NCBI RefSeq assembly: GCF_021462505.1
Contig: NZ_JAKEDV010000009.1
Location: 1-64,000 of the forward strand
Source: Thermus brockianus
Lineage (GTDB): Bacteria > Deinococcota > Deinococci > Deinococcales > Thermaceae
Length of the DNA: 64,000 bases
Reading direction: 5' to 3'
Shown here: one piece after another, positions 1-10,326 of the stretch
How the letters are laid out: every line of letters begins with the position of its first letter
Position numbering within the stretch: position 1 is the first letter of the stretch
Position numbers and translations under genes: made by a program
Notes under the pieces: model-generated
What the model saw: only the letters and a program-made list of their open reading frames with translations
What the model was told of the DNA's origin: nothing
The model's database searches: none

Positions 1-761
1 TGCACGCTGTTCTCCTGCAAGGGGTACGGGGCCAAAGCCGGGCCCCGGGCGAGTTCCGGCGAACGCAGAACTGGATTGGCCCCCCGGGGTGCACCCTGGC
101 TGAGGCCCGCTACGTGCCCCCGCCTCCAGGCCCCATGCTGGAAGCCCTAGACGCCTTGGAGCGTTTCTGGCACAGCGACCATGGGCTACCCCCCCTGGTG
201 GAGATAGCCCTGGTACACTACCAGTTTGAGGCTATACACCCTTTCCTGGACGGCAACGGCCGCATTGGTCGCCTCCTGATTACCCTGATGCTCTTGGAGC
301 GGAACCTTTTGCCCGAGCCGGCCTTGTACCTCTCCGCCTATTTTGAGCGTCATAGGAGCCAGTATTACGATCTCCTTCTGCGCGTTAGCCAGACAGGAGA
401 CTGGATGTCATGGATTGTCTTCTTCCTCAAAGGTGTAAAAACCGAGGCGAAGGACGCCACCCAAAAGGCCCAGCGACTCATAGCCCTCCGTCAAAACTGG
501 CGGCAAATCTATCAGGACAAGGGCGGGAGCGCGCACCTCTTAGCCCTGATTGACCTTCTCTTTGAGCAGCCCGTACTTACGGCGTCCATCGTGCGGGAAC
601 GTTTAGAGGTAACCCACGCCTGGGCCATGCGCCTAATAGGGAGGCTTGTGGAAGACGGTATACTCACGCCCCTAAGCCAGGCCCGGCGCAACCGCCTTTA
701 CGGCGCCCGGGAAATCCTGCAAACCCTGGAGGAGCCCAGCCATGCCGAAGAAGCTCATTGA
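1..761 (+). CDS. Fic family protein (5' end outside window)
   Basis: Fic proteins usually transfer AMP or another nucleotide moiety to hydroxyl side chains of target proteins. The open frame enters from the window edge (first whole codon at position 3) and already reads Fic-like sequence before the first ATG at 135 (GVRGQSRAPGEFR). The signature HPFLDGNGRIGRL is at about 240-280, matching the catalytic HxFx(D/E)GNGRxxR motif with all key residues present. The C-terminal part (from about 560) looks like a winged-helix DNA-binding domain, as in many Fic regulators. The stop overlaps the start of the DUF1156 methylase by 20 nt, so the two are probably co-translated. Target and any inhibitory partner are unknown. 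The family call is secure; the link to defence is inferred from its neighbours. Confidence 0.9.
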   Translation, partial: HAVLLQGVRGQSRAPGEFRRTQNWIGPPGCTLAEARYVPPPPGPMLEALDALERFWHSDHGLPPLVEIALVHYQFEAIHPFLDGNGRIGRLLITLMLLERNLLPEPALYLSAYFERHRSQYYDLLLRVSQTGDWMSWIVFFLKGVKTEAKDATQKAQRLIALRQNWRQIYQDKGGSAHLLALIDLLFEQPVLTASIVRERLEVTHAWAMRLIGRLVEDGILTPLSQARRNRLYGAREILQTLEEPSHAEEAH

Positions 762-3576
762 GGTCGCCCTACCCCTCGAGGCCATCAACCGGGAGGCGAG
801 CCGGGAAAAGTCCATCCGCCATGGCCACCCCTCCACCCTGCACCTGTGGTGGGCCAGGCGGCCCCTGGCCGCCGCCCGAGCCGTCCTCTTCGCCAGCCTG
901 GTGGACGACCCCGGGGTCCACCTTCCCCCCGAGGAGGCCCAGCAGGAGCGGGAAAGGCTCTTTGAGCTCCTGGAGCGTCTGGTAAACTGGGATAACGTCA
1001 AAAATCCCCAAGAGGCCCTGAACCCGGGCCAGGGCGTTATCGCCGAGGCCCAGTACGAAATCGCCAAGAGCCTGGCCCGAAGCCTAGGCCAAGCCCCTCC
1101 CGCCTCCAAGGAGGACCGCCCCGCCATAGAGGCCCTCCTTCGCCAAGCCCCGCCCGTGCTGGACCCTTTCGCCGGGGGCGGCACCATACCCCTAGAGGCC
1201 CAGCGCCTGGGCCTTTCCGCCCACGCCGGGGACCTGAACCCCGTGGCCGTCCTCCTCAACAAGGCCCTTCTGGAAATCCCCGCCCGCTTTGCCGGCCTGC
1301 CGCCCGTGAACCCCGAATACCGGGCGAAGGCCAACGCAAGCGACCGCTTCCATGGGGCCCAGGGCCTTGCCTGGGACGTGCGCCACTACGGGGCCTGGAT
1401 GCGGGAAAGGGCCAGGGAGCGCATAGGGCACCTCTACCCCGAGGTGGACGGGAAGACCGTCATCGCCTGGATTTGGGCCCGGACCGTGACCTGCCCCAAC
1501 CCCGGGTGCCGGGCGGAGGCTCCCTTGGTTCGCTCCTTCTGGCTTTCCAAGAAGAAGGGCAAGGAAGCCTTCGTGGTCCCCAAGGTGGCGGGGGGAAGGG
1601 TTTCCTTCCGGGTGGAGCATAAGGGGAAACCCCCCGTGGAGGGCACCATCAACCGCCGGGGCGGGATCTGCCTGGTCTGCGGGAGCGCCATCCCCCTGGA
1701 GCACGTGCGCCAGGAGGGGAAAGCGGGGCGCCTTGGGGCCCGGCTCATGGCCATTGTGGCCGAGGGGCAGGGGGGCCGGAGCTACCATGCCCCGGAGCCC
1801 GAGCACGAAAGGGTAGCTCACAAGGCAAAGCCTGTATGGAAACCTGATACACAGCTTGCCCACGACCCCCGCAACATCTGGTGCACCCAATACGGCCTGA
1901 CTACCCATGCCGACCTGTTCACCCCCCGCCAGCTCGAGGCCCTCACCACCTTCGCCGACCTGGTGGCCGAGGCTAGGGAGAGAGCCTACCAGGACGCCCT
2001 AAAGGCGGGCTTTCCCGATGACGGCGTACCCCTGGCCCAAGGAGGGCGGGAGGCTAGGGCGTATGCGGAGGCGGTCGGTGTGTATCTAGCCCTGGCACTG
2101 AACCACATGACCAATCGTCACAGCACCCTTGCCACCTGGGATGCTAGTCGGGATAACGTGCGAAGCGTATTTGCCCGCCAAGCCCTCCCCATGACCTGGG
2201 ACTTCGCCGAGGCCAACCCCTTCGGAGAAGCCACGGGCGCTTGGGAAGGCATGGTGGACTGGGTAGCCCGCGCCCTAGAGGCCCTTCCCGCCCACCCCCC
2301 TGGCCAGGCCCGCCAGGTGAACGCCACGGAATCGGTGAACGGGGTGCCCTCCCCGCCCCTCATCTCCACCGACCCCCCTTACTACGACAACATCAGCTAC
2401 GCCGCCCTCTCGGACTTCTTCTATGTCTGGCTCCGGAGAACCTTGAAAGACACCTACCCCGAGCTTTTCCGTACCCTTCTCGTGCCCAAGGAGGAGGAGC
2501 TCATCGCCGACCCCTACCGGCACGGGGGCAAGGAGGCCGCCAAGCGCCGCTTTGAAGAGGGCATGCGCCAGGTCTTCCGCCACCTGCGCGCCAAGGCCCA
2601 CCCGGACTACCCCCTAAGCCTCTACTACGCCTTCAAGCAACAGGAGGTGGACGAAGAGGGGCAAGAAGAGGAGGGAACCCCCCAGGTGGCCTCCACCGGA
2701 TGGGAAACCTTCTTGCAGGGCCTGGTGGACGAGGGCTTCCAGATAACCGCCACCTGGCCCATGCGCACGGAGCTCGCCAACCGCCCCCGGGGCCAGGGAG
2801 CAAACGCCCTCGCCTCCTCCATCGTCCTGGTCTGCCGCCCGCGCCCGCAAGGGGCCCCCAGGGCGACCCGGCAGGACTTCCTCCGGGCCTTGCGTCAAGA
2901 GCTCCCCGAGGCCCTAAGGGCACTCACCCAAGGGAGCATCCCCCCTGTGGACCTGGCCCAAAGCGCCATCGGGCCCGGCATGGCCGTCTTCAGCCGCTAC
3001 GCCGCCGTCTTGGAGCCGGATGGTCGCCCCCTTTCCGTGCGGGAAGCCCTGGCTCTCATCAATCAGGTCCTGGACGAGTTCCTGGCCGAGGAGGAGGCGG
3101 AGTTTGACCCCGACACCCGCTTCGCCATTGCCTGGTACGAGCAGTACGGCTACGAGGAAGGCCCCTATGGGGACGCCGAAACCCTAGCCAAGGCCAAGAA
3201 CGTGGCCGTGGCGGGCCTGGTGGAGGGGGGTATCCTCCATGCCAAGGGCGGCAAGGTGCGGCTCCTCCGCCCCGAGGAATACCCCGAGGACTGGGACCCC
3301 AGCGCCGATAAGCGCCCCTCCGTCTGGGAAGCGGCCCACCACCTCATCCGCCTTCTGGCCGGGCCTGGGGAAAGCGCCGCCGCGGCTCTCCTCGCCAGGC
3401 TCGCTGGGAACCTGCAAGAGGGGGCGAGGGCCCTCGCCTACCGGCTTTACCAGATCGCCGAGCGCGAAGGCCGAGCGGAAGACGCCCTGAACTTCAACCT
3501 GCTGGCGGGAAGCTATGGGCACTTGGCACTGGAGGCCGCAAAGCGTAAGGGGGTCCAGGAAAGGCTTTTTGGCTAG
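742..3576 (+). CDS. DUF1156 DNA methylase (COG1743-like)
   Basis: A large protein (944 aa) of the DUF1156/COG1743 type, predicted to methylate adenine in DNA. The N-terminus carries the DUF1156 signature (SIRHGHPSTLHLWWARRPLA, residues about 29-48). A SAM-binding motif LDPFAGGGT lies near residue 139 and the catalytic DPPY motif in TDPPYYDNISYAALSDFF near 542. CPNPGC (about 250) and CLVC (about 309) probably form a zinc ribbon. The ATG at 742 follows GGAGGAG at a good distance and lies within the end of the Fic gene. In other genomes this family occurs beside DUF499 ATPases in phage-defence clusters; here the DUF499 gene lies 1.5 kb downstream. No restriction nuclease domain was recognised in the window, so whether it restricts or only modifies is open. 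Confidence 0.88.
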   Translation: MPKKLIEVALPLEAINREASREKSIRHGHPSTLHLWWARRPLAAARAVLFASLVDDPGVHLPPEEAQQERERLFELLERLVNWDNVKNPQEALNPGQGVIAEAQYEIAKSLARSLGQAPPASKEDRPAIEALLRQAPPVLDPFAGGGTIPLEAQRLGLSAHAGDLNPVAVLLNKALLEIPARFAGLPPVNPEYRAKANASDRFHGAQGLAWDVRHYGAWMRERARERIGHLYPEVDGKTVIAWIWARTVTCPNPGCRAEAPLVRSFWLSKKKGKEAFVVPKVAGGRVSFRVEHKGKPPVEGTINRRGGICLVCGSAIPLEHVRQEGKAGRLGARLMAIVAEGQGGRSYHAPEPEHERVAHKAKPVWKPDTQLAHDPRNIWCTQYGLTTHADLFTPRQLEALTTFADLVAEARERAYQDALKAGFPDDGVPLAQGGREARAYAEAVGVYLALALNHMTNRHSTLATWDASRDNVRSVFARQALPMTWDFAEANPFGEATGAWEGMVDWVARALEALPAHPPGQARQVNATESVNGVPSPPLISTDPPYYDNISYAALSDFFYVWLRRTLKDTYPELFRTLLVPKEEELIADPYRHGGKEAAKRRFEEGMRQVFRHLRAKAHPDYPLSLYYAFKQQEVDEEGQEEEGTPQVASTGWETFLQGLVDEGFQITATWPMRTELANRPRGQGANALASSIVLVCRPRPQGAPRATRQDFLRALRQELPEALRALTQGSIPPVDLAQSAIGPGMAVFSRYAAVLEPDGRPLSVREALALINQVLDEFLAEEEAEFDPDTRFAIAWYEQYGYEEGPYGDAETLAKAKNVAVAGLVEGGILHAKGGKVRLLRPEEYPEDWDPSADKRPSVWEAAHHLIRLLAGPGESAAAALLARLAGNLQEGARALAYRLYQIAEREGRAEDALNFNLLAGSYGHLALEAAKRKGVQERLFG

Positions 3577-3618
3577 AGCAGCCGAGGATGGCACGGAGGT
3601 TAGCCTTGACTAACTATC

Positions 3619-4005
3619 TTGGGGGTAATAACATGGGGGCGTGAGGTGGGGCGATACCAGGTGGTCTTCTACCAAGACCCCAAAGGGCGCGAACCTTTTC
3701 GCGAGTGGCTTGAGGAACTGAAGCGCTTTCGCCCCCACCTCCACCAGTTGGCCATGCGCCTTCTTAGGGAACTTCAAGAGCTTGGTACCGACGAAATGCG
3801 GCCACCCAAGGTCAAATCCTTCCGCCGCAAGGGCGTGCTGATTCACGAGCTTCGCAAACTCACCCAGGAAGGCGCCATGCGCATTTACTTTCTTCGTCTG
3901 GGTTCCACCTTTTTGGTCGTGGCTGGAGAGCTCAAGAAGGAGGACCAACCCGACAAGCGCCTTTTGGACCTTGTCGTCCGGGCTCACAGGGAAGAGGTGA
4001 ACTGA
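3619..4005 (+). CDS. HigB/RelE-type toxin (Gp49-like)
   Basis: A 128-aa protein of the phage-derived Gp49-like/HigB family, which cleave mRNA, usually on the ribosome. Diagnostic stretches are YQDPKGREPFREWLEELK near the N-terminus, VKSFRRKGVLIHELR in the middle, and RIYFLRLGSTFLVVAGELKK (the RelE-fold core strand). The open frame begins at a TTG (3619), but GTG at 3646, directly before GRYQVVFYQDP, is an equally good start and gives a more usual length of 119 aa. The Xre antitoxin gene starts 3 nt after the stop, toxin first as in higBA loci, and a SecB-like gene follows. This suggests a toxin-antitoxin-chaperone operon. The gene sits between the DUF1156 and DUF499 genes. Confidence 0.85.
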   Translation: MGVITWGREVGRYQVVFYQDPKGREPFREWLEELKRFRPHLHQLAMRLLRELQELGTDEMRPPKVKSFRRKGVLIHELRKLTQEGAMRIYFLRLGSTFLVVAGELKKEDQPDKRLLDLVVRAHREEVN

Positions 4006-4007
4006 GT

Positions 4008-4424
4008 ATGCCTAGGGGCACTAATTTTGCAGAATACTTCAAGGAGGTCATGCAGGACCCCGAGGAGCGGCGGCTCTATCGGGAGGTTTTGGAGGAGGAG
4101 CTGCGGGAGCTTCTTACCTACCTGCGGGACCACCGGGGGTTCACCCAGGAGGAAGTAGCCCAGCGCCTTGGGGTTTCCCGTAGCCGCATTAGCCAGCTGG
4201 AAACCGCTGCGGGGCTTTCCCTTACCCTGGAAACCCTGGCCCGGTACGCCCAGGCTTTGGGCCTTTCCTTGCGGCTTGAGTTCGCTGACGAAAGCGGCGA
4301 GGTGCTTGCCCGCTACAGCCTCTCCCCAGATGAGCCCCTGGAAACGGGCGCCGCAAGTTGGGCCCATGTGAGTGTGGACTCCCTGTATCCCCCTCCGAAA
4401 GAGGCTTCCTCCTTCGCCGCCTAA
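4008..4424 (+). CDS. Xre-family antitoxin (HigA-like)
   Basis: A 138-aa cro/C1-type HTH protein. The helix-turn-helix FTQEEVAQRLGVSRSRISQL lies at about residues 45-64, followed by LTLETLARYAQALGLSLRLE, as in HigA antitoxins. It should bind the HigB-like toxin encoded 2 nt upstream and repress the operon. After the DNA-binding core comes a tail of some 40 residues containing GAASWAHVSVDSLYPPP. In known toxin-antitoxin-chaperone systems the antitoxin has such a C-terminal extension (ChAD) that makes it dependent on a SecB-like chaperone, and a SecB-like gene follows 3 nt downstream. The antitoxin call is firm; the chaperone-dependence role of the tail is inference. Confidence 0.85.
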   Translation: MPRGTNFAEYFKEVMQDPEERRLYREVLEEELRELLTYLRDHRGFTQEEVAQRLGVSRSRISQLETAAGLSLTLETLARYAQALGLSLRLEFADESGEVLARYSLSPDEPLETGAASWAHVSVDSLYPPPKEASSFAA

Positions 4425-4427
4425 ACC

Positions 4428-4988
4428 ATGGCTAGCAAATCGGAAACCATCCGCGAGCTTTACAGGAAGGGAAAAAGCGTTTCAGAAATAGCTAAGGAGC
4501 TCGGGCTGTCGTACCAACGGGTTTACAACACCCTGCGCAGGGCGGGCCTCCTCCAGCCCAAGGGCACCCCATCCGAAACGGAGGTGGACCCTAAGGCCTA
4601 CGGCCGCTTTATTGAGGGCTTGGAAATCCTGTCCGTGGAGCTTGTGGAGGTCCAAGCCAAGTTGGAGCGCCCTCCTCAGAAGGGGAAGCCCCTGGAGCCC
4701 GTGCTCACCCCTCTAAAGGCGTTTGGACCCGACAAAATAGAGGGCGGATTTAAAGCCGGTCTGGAACTCCACCTTGACATCAAGGACGCCCTTGGCAGTT
4801 TTGGTTTTCTGAAGCTCCGCGTAGCCGCCACCTACCAAAGCGCCCACTTCCCCGAAGGGGCTTTTTTCCAAACCTTCAGCCAACGAAACCTGCCCCTAAA
4901 CCTCTGGCCCTACCTCCGCCTTTACGTGGACTTTCTAACCAGCCAGATGGGGCTCCCACGTTTGGTGCTTCCCGTGCTAAAGCTTTAA
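4428..4988 (+). CDS. SecB-like chaperone with N-terminal HTH
   Basis: A 186-aa protein in two parts. Residues about 1-45 form a resolvase/Xre-like HTH (KSVSEIAKELGLSYQRVYNT). The remainder resembles SecB: predicted beta strands, then the pattern NLPLNLWPYLRLYVDFLTSQ with MGLPRLVLPVLKL at the C-terminus, matching the SecB helix and the following LP...L segment. SecB-like proteins in TAC modules fold and protect a chaperone-addicted antitoxin. The gene lies 3 nt after the Xre antitoxin and is the third gene of the toxin-antitoxin unit, which supports that role. A DNA-binding domain fused to a SecB-like fold is unusual and could let the chaperone join operon regulation. The SecB assignment rests on pattern recognition only; the alternative is an unknown HTH regulator. 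Confidence 0.65.
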   Translation: MASKSETIRELYRKGKSVSEIAKELGLSYQRVYNTLRRAGLLQPKGTPSETEVDPKAYGRFIEGLEILSVELVEVQAKLERPPQKGKPLEPVLTPLKAFGPDKIEGGFKAGLELHLDIKDALGSFGFLKLRVAATYQSAHFPEGAFFQTFSQRNLPLNLWPYLRLYVDFLTSQMGLPRLVLPVLKL

Positions 4989-5002: not shown

Positions 5003-5026
5003 GGCCAGGGGCGCTTCCTCCTGGCC
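5003..5026 (+). repeat. Short inverted repeat upstream of DUF499 gene
   Basis: GGCCAGG (5003-5009) and CCTGGCC (5020-5026) form a 7-bp stem with a 10-nt loop in the 52-nt gap between the SecB-like gene and the DUF499 gene. It could be an attenuator, a weak terminator of the TAC module or an operator. There is no T-run after it. Confidence 0.35.
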
Positions 5027-5040
5027 GATATGCTTTTACT

Positions 5041-8000
5041 ATGGCGCTCAGCAACCGCGAAATCGTGGGGCGTGGGCTGGACCTCCTGAAGGAGGCCCTT
5101 AAGCCCTTCGTGGAACAGGAGTACCGCAGGGTCTACAAGGAGGACTGGGCCAAGGAGATGGCGGAGGTCCTGAGGGGGGACCGCTACTCCCTCCAAGACC
5201 CGGACACCCAGGCCCTCCTCAAGCTCATGGACTACCGCTGGGCCGAGGTCTTTGACGAGAAGCTCGGCCGCTGGGGCCGGACGCTGGTCAAGGAGCTCAT
5301 AGAGGTACGCAACCGCTGGGGCCACCAGAACGCCTTCAGCCTCGAGGACGCCCACCGGGCCCTGGATAGCATCACCCGCCTCCTGGAGATGATCGCCGCC
5401 GAGGAAGCCCGGGAAACCGGGCGCATGGCCCGCGAGCTCCTCAGGCGGCGCTACGAAGAGGACGCAAGGCGCGAGGCCGAGCGCCGGGTAAGCGAACCCA
5501 CCCAGGTTTTGGCCCCTAGAGGCCTTCCCCCTTGGCGGGAGGTGGTCACGCCCCACCCCGACGTGGCCTCGGGCCGCTACAGCGAGGCGGAGTTCGCCGC
5601 CGACCTGGCCCAGGTTCACAAGGGGGAGGCTGGCCCCGAGTACGGCGACCCGGAGGAGTTCTTCCGCCGCACCTACCTGACCCAAGGGCTTTCCCGCCTC
5701 CTCCAAAGCGCCCTTAGGCGCCTCTCCGGCGAAGGGGGCGACCCCGTGGTGGAGCTCCAGACCGCCTTCGGGGGCGGCAAGACCCACTCCATGCTGGCCC
5801 TTTACCACCTCTTCGGCGGCCGGGTGGACCCCAAGGAGGTGCCGGGGCTGGAAGACCTCTTGGCCCAGGCGGGCATAACCCAGGTGCCCGTGGCCCGCCG
5901 CGCCGTCTTCGTGGGCACCGCCTTCAGCCCCGCCCGCACCCACCTCAAGCCCGAAGGCATCACCGTGCGCACCCTCTGGGGGGAAATCGCCTACCAGCTT
6001 GGGGGCGTGGAGGGCTACCGCATGGTGGAGGAGGAAGACCAGAAGGGGGTGGCCCCGGGCTCGGACGTGCTCAAGGCGCTCTTTGACCGCTTCAGCCCCG
6101 CCCTCATCCTCATTGACGAGTGGGTAGCCTTTCTTCGCAACCTCTACGGGGAAACGGACCTGCCCGCCGGCACCTTTGACCAAAACCTCACCTTCGCCCA
6201 GGCCCTTACCGAGGCGGCCAAGCGGAGCTCCCGTACCCTGGTGGTGGCCTCCTTGCCCGCTTCCGATATGGAGGTGGGGGGAAGCGGCGGGCGGGAGGCC
6301 CTCATCCGCCTGCAAAACGTGGTGGGGAGGCTGGAGTCCGTGTGGCAACCCGCCACCCAGGACGAAGCCTACGAGATCGTCCGCCGCCGCCTCTTTCTTC
6401 CCCTTTCGGAAGAAGGGTACCGCCAGCGGGACGCCGTGGTGCGGGAGTTTATGCGCTACTACCGGGAAAACAAGGGCGAGTTCCCCAGCGAGGTCCTGGA
6501 GCCCGATTACGAGCGCCGCATGAAGGCGGCCTATCCCATCCACCCCGAACTCTTTGACCGGCTCTACGAGGACTGGTCCACCCTCGAGGGCTTCCAGCGC
6601 ACCCGGGGGGTCCTCCGCCTTATGGCCTTCGTGGTCCACACCCTCTGGACCCGGGGCGACCCTTCCCTTCTCATTCTCCCAGGGAGCCTACCCCTAGACG
6701 CCGGAGGACCTCGGTATGAGCTCGTCCGCCACCTCTCCCGCTACCAGGAGGGCTTTGACCAGGTGGTGGACGCCGACATAGACGGCCCCAACGCCAAGGC
6801 CCTCATCCTGGAGCGGGAGCGCCCCGCCCTGGCCCGCCACCACGCCGCCCGCAGGGTGGCCCGTGCGGTCTTCCTCGCCACCGCCCCCGCCGCTGCAAGC
6901 CCGGGCCAGGCCCACCGCCCCAAGGGCGTGCAGGGGGTGCGGGTGAAGCTGGGGGTGGCCCAGCCCGGGGAAAGCCCCTCCCTCTTCACCGACGCCCTAA
7001 AGGCCCTTTCCGACCGCCTCACCTACTTCCACGCCGAGGGGGACCGCTACTGGTTTGAAACCCGTCCTAGCCTGAACCGCCTGGCCCAGGACCGGATGGC
7101 CTCCCTGGACGAGCACGAGGCCATGGCGGAAATCCTCTCCCGCCTCCAGGCCTGGGCCAGGGCCCGCCCCGCCCTCTTCCAAGCGGTCCACGCCGCCCCC
7201 TCGGGAAGCGGGGACATGCCCGACGAACCCGCCTTGCGTCTGGTAGTCCTGCCCCCCACCGCTCCCTACGCCAAGGAGAACTCCGAAGCGGAGCGGCTCG
7301 CCCGGGAAATTCTGGAGCGCCGGGGCCAGGCCCCGAGGCTTTACCGGAACACCCTCCTTTTCCTCGCCGCCGAGGCCACCCTGGTACCCGACCTAATAGA
7401 AGCGAGCCGCCGTTACCTGGCCTGGAAGTCCATCCTGGAGGACAAGGAGCGGCTTAACCTGGGCCAGGCGGACGTGCGCCAGGTGGAAGCCCGGGTGAAG
7501 GAGGCGAGCGAAACGCTTGACCTGCGCCTAGAAGAGGCCTACCGCCACCTCCTGGCCTTCCACCAACCCGATCCCAAGGCCCCCCACCTGGAGCTGAGCG
7601 CCATCCGCCTCCTGGGTAGCGGCAAACCCCTGGAGCGGGCGGCGGCCAAGGCGAAGAACGAAGGCCTGGTCTACACGGAGTGGCACCCTAACTTCTTGGA
7701 AGAAACCTTGACCAAGCACGGCTTCTTCGCCGCCAAGGACGGGGAGCTCTCCCTAAGCTGGCTCTGGGAGGCCTTCGCCTCTTACCCCTACCTGCCCAAG
7801 CTCAAGGACGAGGAGGTCCTCCTCCGTGCGGTTAGGGAGGGCGTTCAGGAAGGGCTTTTCGGCTACGCCGACCGGAAAGGGGAGAGGGCCAGGGTGTTCC
7901 TTCGGGAACCCGTCACGCCTAACCTCTCCGGGTATCTCCTGGAGCGAGAGCGGGCCGAAGCCTTGCTGGGGCAAGAGAAGGGGCGGGACGGAGGAACCTC

Positions 8001-8313
8001 AGGCCCTCCGCCGACGGTGATAGATCCCCACAAAGACGTTGGCCCAGCCCCCAGCCCCGCCCCGTCCATCTCCGCCGAGCCCAGGCCCCGCCGCTATTAC
8101 CTGAAAAAGGAGGTGCACCCCGCCGACCTGGTAAGGGACGCAAGCCTTGTGGCCGAAGAGATCGTCCGCCACCTGGCGGGGGAGCCCGGGGTGCGGGTGA
8201 GGGTGGTCCTCGAGGTGCAGGCGGAGGCCGAGGAGGGCTTTTCCAAGGAACTCCAACGGGTTTTGCGGGAGAATAGCCCCCACATCAGCCACGATTACAG
8301 CCTGGAAGACTAG
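5041..8313 (+). CDS. DUF499 AAA-type ATPase, defence-associated
   Basis: A 1090-aa protein of the DUF499 family. The P-loop TAFGGGKTHSML is near residue 240 and the Walker B strand ALILIDEW near 354. The first 150 residues are helical and may be a regulatory or Swt1/HEPN-like region, but no motif was clear there. The C-terminal 350 residues are charged, with a low-complexity proline-rich linker near 985-1010 (PSPAPSISAEPRPRR). DUF499 proteins accompany DUF1156 methylases in predicted phage-defence clusters and are thought to act as the ATP-driven motor or sensor; no biochemical role is established from this sequence. The usual further partners (DUF3780 protein, helicase/PLD nuclease) are not present downstream, since the B12 genes follow on the other strand. 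Confidence 0.88.
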   Translation: MALSNREIVGRGLDLLKEALKPFVEQEYRRVYKEDWAKEMAEVLRGDRYSLQDPDTQALLKLMDYRWAEVFDEKLGRWGRTLVKELIEVRNRWGHQNAFSLEDAHRALDSITRLLEMIAAEEARETGRMARELLRRRYEEDARREAERRVSEPTQVLAPRGLPPWREVVTPHPDVASGRYSEAEFAADLAQVHKGEAGPEYGDPEEFFRRTYLTQGLSRLLQSALRRLSGEGGDPVVELQTAFGGGKTHSMLALYHLFGGRVDPKEVPGLEDLLAQAGITQVPVARRAVFVGTAFSPARTHLKPEGITVRTLWGEIAYQLGGVEGYRMVEEEDQKGVAPGSDVLKALFDRFSPALILIDEWVAFLRNLYGETDLPAGTFDQNLTFAQALTEAAKRSSRTLVVASLPASDMEVGGSGGREALIRLQNVVGRLESVWQPATQDEAYEIVRRRLFLPLSEEGYRQRDAVVREFMRYYRENKGEFPSEVLEPDYERRMKAAYPIHPELFDRLYEDWSTLEGFQRTRGVLRLMAFVVHTLWTRGDPSLLILPGSLPLDAGGPRYELVRHLSRYQEGFDQVVDADIDGPNAKALILERERPALARHHAARRVARAVFLATAPAAASPGQAHRPKGVQGVRVKLGVAQPGESPSLFTDALKALSDRLTYFHAEGDRYWFETRPSLNRLAQDRMASLDEHEAMAEILSRLQAWARARPALFQAVHAAPSGSGDMPDEPALRLVVLPPTAPYAKENSEAERLAREILERRGQAPRLYRNTLLFLAAEATLVPDLIEASRRYLAWKSILEDKERLNLGQADVRQVEARVKEASETLDLRLEEAYRHLLAFHQPDPKAPHLELSAIRLLGSGKPLERAAAKAKNEGLVYTEWHPNFLEETLTKHGFFAAKDGELSLSWLWEAFASYPYLPKLKDEEVLLRAVREGVQEGLFGYADRKGERARVFLREPVTPNLSGYLLERERAEALLGQEKGRDGGTSGPPPTVIDPHKDVGPAPSPAPSISAEPRPRRYYLKKEVHPADLVRDASLVAEEIVRHLAGEPGVRVRVVLEVQAEAEEGFSKELQRVLRENSPHISHDYSLED

Positions 8314-8443: not shown

Positions 8444-9763
8444 CTAAGCGAGCCCTCCACCCTCCACACGGGCCCTTGCCAAGAGCCGCTTCGCCCCTTC
8501 AGGCCGAGCGGGAAGGTAGAGGTGCACGAAGCTCGCCAGCACCCTGCCGTCCGTGTACCCCTCCACCTCCTCTCCCCCCACCCGGCGCCAAGCGGGGCTT
8601 GGGGACTGGGGAAGGCGGGCGTAGTGGAACTCGTGGCCCCTAAACACCTCTCCCCTAAGGGCCAGGGGGTTATCCCGGAGGGCCTCCACCTCCCGGTAGC
8701 CCAGGACGGGCCTATCCGCCATCCGGGCCTCCCCGGGGACCAGGCCCACCATGGGGTAGAAGCTTTCCCCCACCCAAAGCCCCTGGGAGAGGTACATGTA
8801 CCCCCCGCACTCCGCCACCACGGGCCCGGGAAAGCGGCGGATGGCCTCCCGCATGGCCCCGTTGGCGGAAAGCCGCTCGGCGAAAAGCTCCGGGTAGCCA
8901 CCCCCGAGGAGGAGGGCGTCCGCTTGGGGAAGGGCCTCGTCCTCCAGGGGGCTAAAGGGGATGAGCTCGGCCCCCAGGGCCTCCAAAAGCTCCAAGGCCT
9001 CGGGGTAATAGAAGCGGAAGGCCCGGTCCCAGGCGTAGGCTACCCGGGCCCGGGGAGGACGCCTCTTTGGGAGGAAGGGCTTGGCCTCGGGGAGGGGCGG
9101 GGCGGCCTGGGCCAGGCGAAGGGTGGCCTCGAGGTCCACCCGGAAGGCCCGCCGCAGGGCCTCCAGGGGCGGGGCCACCTCCCCGGCGAGGACCAAGCCC
9201 AGGTGCCGTTCGGGCAGGGCCAGGGCGGGGTCCTGGGGGAGCCAGCCCAAGAGGGGAAGGCCCAAGGGGGCGAGGGCCTCCCGGAGGAGCTCCGCATGGC
9301 GCTCGGAACCCACCCGGTTGGCGAAGACCCCCACGAGGCGCACCTCGGGGTCGTGGTCGCGGAAGCCCCGCACCAGGGCGGCGATGGAGCCCGCCATCCC
9401 CTTAGCGTCCACCACCAGGGCCACGGGCAGGCCCAGGAGGCGCGCCACCTGGGCCGTGGACCCCACCCGCCCCAAGGGGTCCTTCCCGTCAAAAAGCCCC
9501 ATCACCCCCTCCACCAGGGCGAAATCCGCCCCCCTCGCCCCGTGGCGGAAGAGGGAGCGGAGGCCCTCCTCGTCCAGGAAGAAGCCGTCCAGGTTGTAGG
9601 GGCGGCGGCCGGTGGCGGCCTCGAGGTGGGTGGGGTCTATGTAGTCGGGGCCCACCTTGAAGGCCTGGACCTTCAGGCCCCGCTCCCTCAGGGCCAAGGC
9701 CAGGGCGAGGGAAAACGTGGTCTTGCCCGCGCCCGAGTGGGGAGCCGCAAGGAGGAGGCGCAT
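8444..9763 (-). CDS. cobB: Cobyrinic acid a,c-diamide synthase
   Basis: Amidates the a and c side chains of cobyrinic acid using glutamine and ATP (CbiA/CobB). The 439-aa protein begins with the P-loop segment AAPHSGAGKTTFSLALALAL and ends with a class-I glutamine amidotransferase domain containing the nucleophile in VAECGGYMYL and the histidine region RGHEFHYARL. It is the last gene of the leftward run cobT-cobS-cobO-cobB. Its ATG overlaps the cobO stop by one base (TGATG), so translation is likely coupled. The length is normal for the family. With no CobN or CobST in the window and CbiX present, the cobalt-early pathway is used, so the substrate is probably cobalt-containing and CbiA would be an equally valid name. 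Confidence 0.95.
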   Translation of the reverse strand: MRLLLAAPHSGAGKTTFSLALALALRERGLKVQAFKVGPDYIDPTHLEAATGRRPYNLDGFFLDEEGLRSLFRHGARGADFALVEGVMGLFDGKDPLGRVGSTAQVARLLGLPVALVVDAKGMAGSIAALVRGFRDHDPEVRLVGVFANRVGSERHAELLREALAPLGLPLLGWLPQDPALALPERHLGLVLAGEVAPPLEALRRAFRVDLEATLRLAQAAPPLPEAKPFLPKRRPPRARVAYAWDRAFRFYYPEALELLEALGAELIPFSPLEDEALPQADALLLGGGYPELFAERLSANGAMREAIRRFPGPVVAECGGYMYLSQGLWVGESFYPMVGLVPGEARMADRPVLGYREVEALRDNPLALRGEVFRGHEFHYARLPQSPSPAWRRVGGEEVEGYTDGRVLASFVHLYLPARPEGAKRLLARARVEGGGLA

Positions 9764-10326
9764 CAGTGCTCTATCCCCCTCTGGGCCGGGACGCCCTGGT
9801 CAAAGGCGTGCTTCACCTTGCGCATCTCCGTCACCGTGTCCGCCAGGTCCAAGAGGGCCTCGGGCGCCCCCCTGCCCGTGACCACCACGTGCACGTGGGG
9901 CGGGCGTCCCTTGAGGGCCTCCAGGAACTCCTCCAAGGCGATCCACCCGTAGCGCAAGGGATAGGTGGCCTCGTCCAGGACCACCAGGTCGTACGCCCCC
10001 GAGAGGAGGGCCTCCTTGGCCCTTTGCCACCCCTCCTGGGCCAGGCGGGCAGAGGCCTCGAGGTCCCGGCTTTTCCACGTGAAACCATCCCCGAGGCCCT
10101 CTATGGGGATGCCGAGCCGGGCGAAGGCCCGGTGCTCCCCAAAGCGGGCGGTGGCGTGCTTGACAAACTGGAAGACCCGCACCCTCAGGCCCCGCCCGTG
10201 GGCCCTGAGGGCGAGGCCGAAGGCGGCGGTGCTCTTGCCCTTGCCGTCCCCGGTGTAGACCAGGAGGAGACCCCTCCTCTCCCCTTGGGGCTTGGCGTAG
10301 GGCTTCACCCGGCGAGGCTCTTCCAT
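9763..10326 (-). CDS. cobO: Cob(I)yrinic acid a,c-diamide adenosyltransferase
   Basis: Transfers the 5'-deoxyadenosyl group from ATP to cobalt(I) corrinoids (CobA/CobO/BtuR family). The 187-aa protein has the P-loop [20 protein letters not shown] at residues about 23-42, [14 protein letters not shown] as Walker B, and [20 protein letters not shown] near the end, all typical. The ATG at 10326 was chosen because the sequence [10 protein letters not shown] fits family N-termini; the open frame extends further upstream only through cobS in another frame. It overlaps the 3' end of cobS by 22 nt and the start of cobB by 1 nt. Confidence 0.95.

Follow-up and report, generated by a model that had tools for sequence, protein, structure and literature searches.

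Known toxin-antitoxin-chaperone systems

Toxin-antitoxin-chaperone (TAC) systems, chaperone addiction, HicAB and MqsRA variants, and phage sensing have all been described (PMC5105189, PMC9519451, PMC11618068). In the TAC of Mycobacterium tuberculosis, the genes Rv1955-Rv1956-Rv1957 encode the toxin HigB1, the antitoxin HigA1 and a SecB-like chaperone in that order, and the Val-Ala end of HigA1 is a proven ClpX signal (PMC8165232). Escherichia coli HigBAC and CmdTAC (PADLOC PD-T4-9) also carry an antitoxin that depends on a SecB-like chaperone and is displaced by phage structural proteins. For CmdTAC it is established that these proteins draw off the chaperone (PMC11618068), and for HigBAC activation by phage through the chaperone has been reported, as reviewed (PMC11980606), so phage sensing via a TAC chaperone is not a new idea. 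The Hma system is a DUF499-centred, BREX-related system in which a HEPN domain on HmaC is known (PMC8565338, PMC12839542). The word SecB is absent from PMC12839542, and the passages of PMC8565338 consulted do not describe embedded toxin-antitoxin modules.

The locus analysed here has the three-gene order of the M. tuberculosis TAC and shares with it the HigB fold, a tailed Xre antitoxin, a hydrophobic-Ala C-terminus and a SecB-like chaperone, for which Rv1957 is the best structural match. The M. tuberculosis system differs in lying outside any DNA-targeting defence operon and in having no helix-turn-helix (HTH) on its chaperone, either in the Rv1957 structure or in the TAC literature searched. 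Similarly, no HTH is described on the chaperones of HigBAC and CmdTAC, with which a phage response here would be shared by analogy. CmdT is an ADP-ribosyltransferase, whereas the toxin at this locus is of the HigB type and only the chaperone gives a weak match to the PD-T4-9_C (CmdC) profile (E = 2.4e-5). HicAB-SecB modules, which occur in Meiothermus/Calidithermus relatives and also in Thermus locus L035, where the chaperone is HTH-SecB, differ in toxin, antitoxin and operator, and the Meiothermus/Calidithermus chaperones are without HTH. In keeping with the original prediction, which set the HTH on this chaperone apart from described TAC systems, the literature searched, with few subscription papers among it, contained no HTH-SecB fusion, no TAC within Hma and no natural exchange of toxin-antitoxin cassettes around one chaperone. 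In that literature, fusion to an HTH, a portable slot and the exchange of partners all appear undescribed.

Gene order and host system

The window, i.e., the whole 64,000-nucleotide stretch analysed, opens contig C24 in a Thermus genome of 2.35 Mb. We regard positions 3646-4988 as probably a HigBAC-type TAC module, because the toxin and chaperone folds match HigB and Rv1957, the gene order and short gaps are conserved in Thermus, HicB antitoxins carry a tail with the chaperone and lack it without, and the TAC persists before a HmaC stub where Hma has been lost. This last observation fits plain addiction equally well. The domains, folds, gene order, conservation, operator and co-occurrence of tail and chaperone are established by sequence and prediction.

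Genes in the window, all on the forward strand, run in the order Fic, HmaB, toxin, antitoxin, HTH-SecB and HmaC. Fic (3-761; PADLOC SoFic, 242 bits) has lost its 5' end at the contig edge, and a frame check found it open from base 3. The flanking genes encode the DUF1156 methylase HmaB (742-3576; PADLOC, 1181 bits) and the DUF499 ATPase HmaC with an N-terminal Swt1-like HEPN domain (5041-8313; PADLOC, 955 bits; HEPN_Swt1, E = 4e-29). The HmaA helicase (1291 bits) lies at the edge of another contig, C23, so that all three Hma proteins are strongly matched in this genome, and from comparison with L032 and L154 we infer that HmaA adjoins the window's Hma genes across the assembly gap. On the T. 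brockianus plasmid pTB1, HmaA-Fic-HmaB-toxin-antitoxin-HTH-SecB-HmaC is complete on a single molecule, and L154, from a genome of the same species as the pTB1 host, has the same complete order from HmaA to HmaC. The trio is a passenger added to the Hma system between its HmaB and HmaC genes.

Three further observations concern the host island. Both ends of contig C23 of genome G000 carry the HmaA end (L052 1-60, L053 8852-9128); the second copy comprises residues 1045-1118 only, is 96% identical and is followed by the same 40-nt junction as the first, which argues that the assembly gap bordering the window is a repeat, and the Hma island is likely to be partially duplicated. The HmaC N-terminus (5041-5400) contains RNRWGH in its HEPN domain, fitting the Rx4-6H RNase motif, and the island may therefore hold a second RNase. 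Between chaperone and HmaC lies an inverted repeat, GGCCAG...CTGGCC (5003-5026); this hairpin is good in the window (z -2.6) and inconsistent among relatives, and was rejected as a conserved element.

The predicted order of toxin, antitoxin and chaperone genes stood: three open reading frames with gaps of 2 nt and 3 nt follow one promoter, an arrangement kept in relatives, and chance is excluded because the unit is conserved at many Thermus loci. The predicted placement in a DUF1156/DUF499 island was borne out by the flanking HmaB and HmaC, but the unit is not specific to such islands, since it also occurs in BREX-like and DISARM/Druantia-like surroundings and alone.

Toxin, antitoxin and chaperone

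The toxin (3646-4005, 119 aa) very probably starts at GTG 3646 and not, as first proposed, at TTG 3619, because relatives begin there and 3599-3634 is promoter and operator. Pfam Gp49 matches 13 of 13 toxin orthologues, the window toxin being weak in Pfam by itself. A toxin profile finds HigB 6af3 in the PDB (E = 5e-7), and the model (pLDDT 91.5) matches the folds of Streptococcus pneumoniae HigB (6af3/6af4) and of HigB1, the M. tuberculosis TAC toxin, placing it in the HigB family. In several relatives the toxin is broken or absent while antitoxin and chaperone are kept, as is expected of a toxin-antitoxin pair. In the window's nearest relatives the toxin is frameshifted (L032 8908-9287; L154 8509-8888), with antitoxin and chaperone intact.

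The antitoxin (4008-4424, 138 aa) is of the Xre/HigA type (HTH_3, E = 1.7e-13, residues 38-89) and extends about 35 residues beyond this domain. An alignment of 18 antitoxins delimits this tail (4320-4421) as a predicted chaperone-addiction region. Trp118 is common to 18/18 and a C-terminal Ala preceded by a hydrophobic residue to 17/18, counts drawn from short segments of mutually related proteins and so not independent; [AVLI]A ends occur in 3.5% of unrelated long ORFs at the same loci. The window antitoxin ends in Ala-Ala, a ClpX-type end, and ClpX is encoded in this genome. HicBs at chaperone-less loci (L147, L150) stop early, without a tail, and those adjoining HTH-SecB have a tail with Trp that ends in -VA or -LA. 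Judged by sequence, then, the Xre tail is present here and the HicB tail tracks the chaperone, as in HigBAC-type TAC.

The chaperone (4428-4988, 186 aa) proved to have both predicted parts. Its N-terminal HTH (residues 4-41, 4437-4550; HTH_23, E = 4.5e-6, residues 11-38) is modelled as three helices (4-13, 18-25 and the recognition helix 29-38, YQRVYNTLRR), followed by a flexible linker (45-50) and a SecB-like domain (55-186, 4590-4985). The structure prediction (pLDDT 87) gave a SecB fold in Foldseek (E = 1e-8), with Rv1957 ranked first (TM 0.80-0.83 by target, best two chains) and the true SecBs of E. coli and Haemophilus influenzae after it. Every one of the 19 PDB entries matched with E <= 1e-3 is either SecB or Rv1957, and the profile search that had been proposed alongside structure prediction as a check on the SecB-like fold also finds Rv1957 (E = 7e-6). 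The prediction thus withstood the fold test that had been set as one way to refute it.

HigB would act as a ribosome-dependent-type mRNase, neutralised by Xre, which would also repress the operon at a palindrome, GTTAG-N6-CTAAC. The chaperone would fold the antitoxin and hold and shield its tail, with the conserved Trp and C-terminal Ala-Ala. By analogy, another client, e.g. a new phage structural protein, may occupy the chaperone and leave the tail exposed, whereupon ClpXP would remove the antitoxin and HigB would cleave mRNA and stop growth. The extra HTH would most likely give the chaperone a means of DNA binding, by itself or together with the antitoxin.

Distribution and cassette exchange

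TAC units within Hma occur in the window, in L032-L038 and on T. thermophilus plasmids. Outside Hma, the unit follows a BrxL-like gene in L041 and DpdE/DrmMI-like genes in L042. In L043 it has on one side a large gene adjoining a DpdE-like helicase and on the other a DruE-like gene; in L045 it is flanked by DrmMI-like and DruE-like genes. Among the sequences searched, full-length HTH-SecB was confined to the Thermus family and a second family within its order; around G148, the search of the phylum covered 3 genomes. Outside Deinococcota, matches on genome contigs cover the HTH only or nearly so, in a scan with two peptide patterns that could miss distant forms. Plasmid searches gave full-length matches only in Thermus, no phage record contained HTH-SecB, and IMG/VR held virtually nothing.

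The HmaB-HmaC junction is a slot for toxin-antitoxin units: in relatives it is either empty or occupied by HigBA-HTH-SecB, HicAB-HTH-SecB, HicAB by itself or a VapBC-like AbrB/PIN pair. Examples are HicAB without chaperone in L147 (5466-6178) and an AbrB-type/PIN pair on the opposite strand in L151 (4927-5693). Loci L035 and L036 share 95.7% DNA identity up to near the HmaB end, and their identity is 96.5% beyond roughly codon 6 of HTH-SecB; between these flanks, each holds one set, HicA-HicB or HigB-Xre. By sequence comparison, toxin-antitoxin pairs are thus exchanged as cassettes, with HTH-SecB retained. Chaperone transferability was shown earlier with engineered tail grafts (PMC5105189); here, one chaperone type serves unrelated toxin-antitoxin pairs in nature, and a defence operon has a fixed slot where such units come and go.

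The distribution also bears on a pure addiction or maintenance module, which would serve to retain the Hma island (and plasmid) and play no part in phage sensing. We consider this possible, though rather doubtful. The unit remains where Hma genes are lost (L039, L040 and L108, in which the first codons of HmaC are left behind the chaperone), many HTH-SecB copies lie on plasmids, and the same slot is occupied by other pairs such as HicAB alone or VapBC-like genes. However, a plain two-gene pair would suffice for addiction, and the chaperone-dependent form recurs in several defence systems, which points to a sensing role; moreover, the TAC systems that have been tested respond to phage (PMC11618068, PMC9519451).

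Operators and the role of the HTH

The TAC promoter is sigma-70-like as read from the sequence (forward strand, 3606-3634: TTGACT at 3606-3611, a 17-nt spacer and TAACAT at 3629-3634), and its layout is conserved among relatives. The palindromic operator GTTAG-N6-CTAAC (3599-3614), recognised by its copies at relatives' promoters, overlaps the -35 box. Within the HTH-SecB group, each HigB-Xre promoter that is intact carries it. The loci compared, about 620 kb with some redundancy, hold 23 copies, all of them at these promoters, and the 2.35-Mb genome holds one. HicAB promoters have a different operator, of the GTGATAT..ATATCA type, whether or not the chaperone has an HTH, and L044, whose chaperone is without HTH, retains GTTAC-N6-CTAAC (9/10 operator bases), so the operator goes with the antitoxin. 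Xre is the likely binder of GTTAG-N6-CTAAC as judged from these sequences. HTH-SecB as sole binder was rejected, given that the HTH-less L044 keeps the site and HicAB loci use another with or without HTH; L035 is a weak test of the binder because its cassette swap is recent. As to whether L044 lost its HTH or never had one, the tree places L044 inside the HTH group, which favours loss, though ancestral absence is not rejected (p-AU 0.154).

That HTH-SecB is a DNA-binding chaperone, whose client load (antitoxin or phage protein) decides its DNA occupancy, is a tentative proposal. R9, K16, Y29, Q30 and Y33 are invariant in the HTH, and those in the recognition helix suggest DNA as its target. 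If true, one protein would tie the stability of the antitoxin to the freeing of the toxin and to how the TAC, or else the neighbouring defence genes, are transcribed.

It is conceivable, with similarly limited confidence, that the HTH does not bind DNA and is an adaptor contacting the antitoxin, the toxin or Hma proteins. This would agree with both operators found, which track antitoxin type and not the chaperone HTH, and with the nearly intact operator of the HTH-less L044. Against it, Y29, Q30 and Y33 do not vary between Hma, BREX-like and Druantia-like loci, a constancy that a DNA target would lead one to expect, and the closest sequence neighbours of the HTH are DNA-binding HTHs.

Between HmaA and Fic/HmaB lies an array of TGTGATAC/GTATCACA half-sites (e.g. 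TGTGATACGCCTGTATCACA) at L033 5494-5550, L036 4628-4690, L100 682-740 and equivalents. This TGATAC/GTATCA array, which lies upstream of Fic/HmaB, is confined to the Hma loci that belong to the TAC-bearing group. Because it persists without Fic (L033-L035) or without Xre (L035), HTH-SecB is one candidate binder; HmaB and a chromosomal regulator are other candidates.

The array could also speak for Xre and HTH-SecB as a regulator pair of the defence operon, with the SecB fold as sensor domain and the toxin incidental, a reading that we find unlikely. Its restriction to TAC-bearing Hma loci and its outlasting of a missing Fic or Xre would fit, as would Xre with HTH-SecB but no HigB in HB8, L106 and L107 and the truncated HigB of L108. 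Yet HTH-SecB loci outside Hma do not have the array, most TAC-less Hma loci are more distant, so that its distribution may reflect ancestry only, and the Xre operator stands at no Hma promoter in the loci set or the genome. Returning to the HigBAC-type reading, on the T. thermophilus HB8 plasmid pVV8, where the same slot is filled, HicA-HicB precede Xre and HTH-SecB and HigB is missing, and therefore the chaperone may have a role beyond the HigB toxin. Because HB8 is a laboratory strain, this copy, with HicAB in place of HigB, makes the question testable.

Annotation and related modules

An ordinary export chaperone SecB lying by chance beside a toxin-antitoxin pair is very improbable: the protein has the SecB fold, but its closest structure is a TAC chaperone, it is found in defence clusters and on plasmids and is patchy within Thermus, and Pfam SecB is not among the 25 best Pfam matches of the window chaperone, reaches only E = 0.015 at best in the 16 relatives scanned, and has no match in this genome at E <= 0.1. 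Such weak Pfam SecB matches explain database names like 'sigma-70 family RNA polymerase sigma factor' or 'helix-turn-helix domain-containing protein'. If the HigBAC-type reading is right, TAC chaperones bearing an HTH form an additional class, overlooked because databases name these proteins by the HTH only.

Other SecB-like proteins stand in comparable rows. In Meiothermus-group genomes (L048 and L051, about 8500-10060), a DUF4160-like protein and a second protein, perhaps its antitoxin, are followed by a SecB-like protein, a possible further TAC type. In Deinococcus radiodurans MP1 (L113 2255-6501; L115), HicA, an unannotated HicB-like ORF and a SecB-like protein, followed by McrB, constitute another TAC, beside a restriction system.
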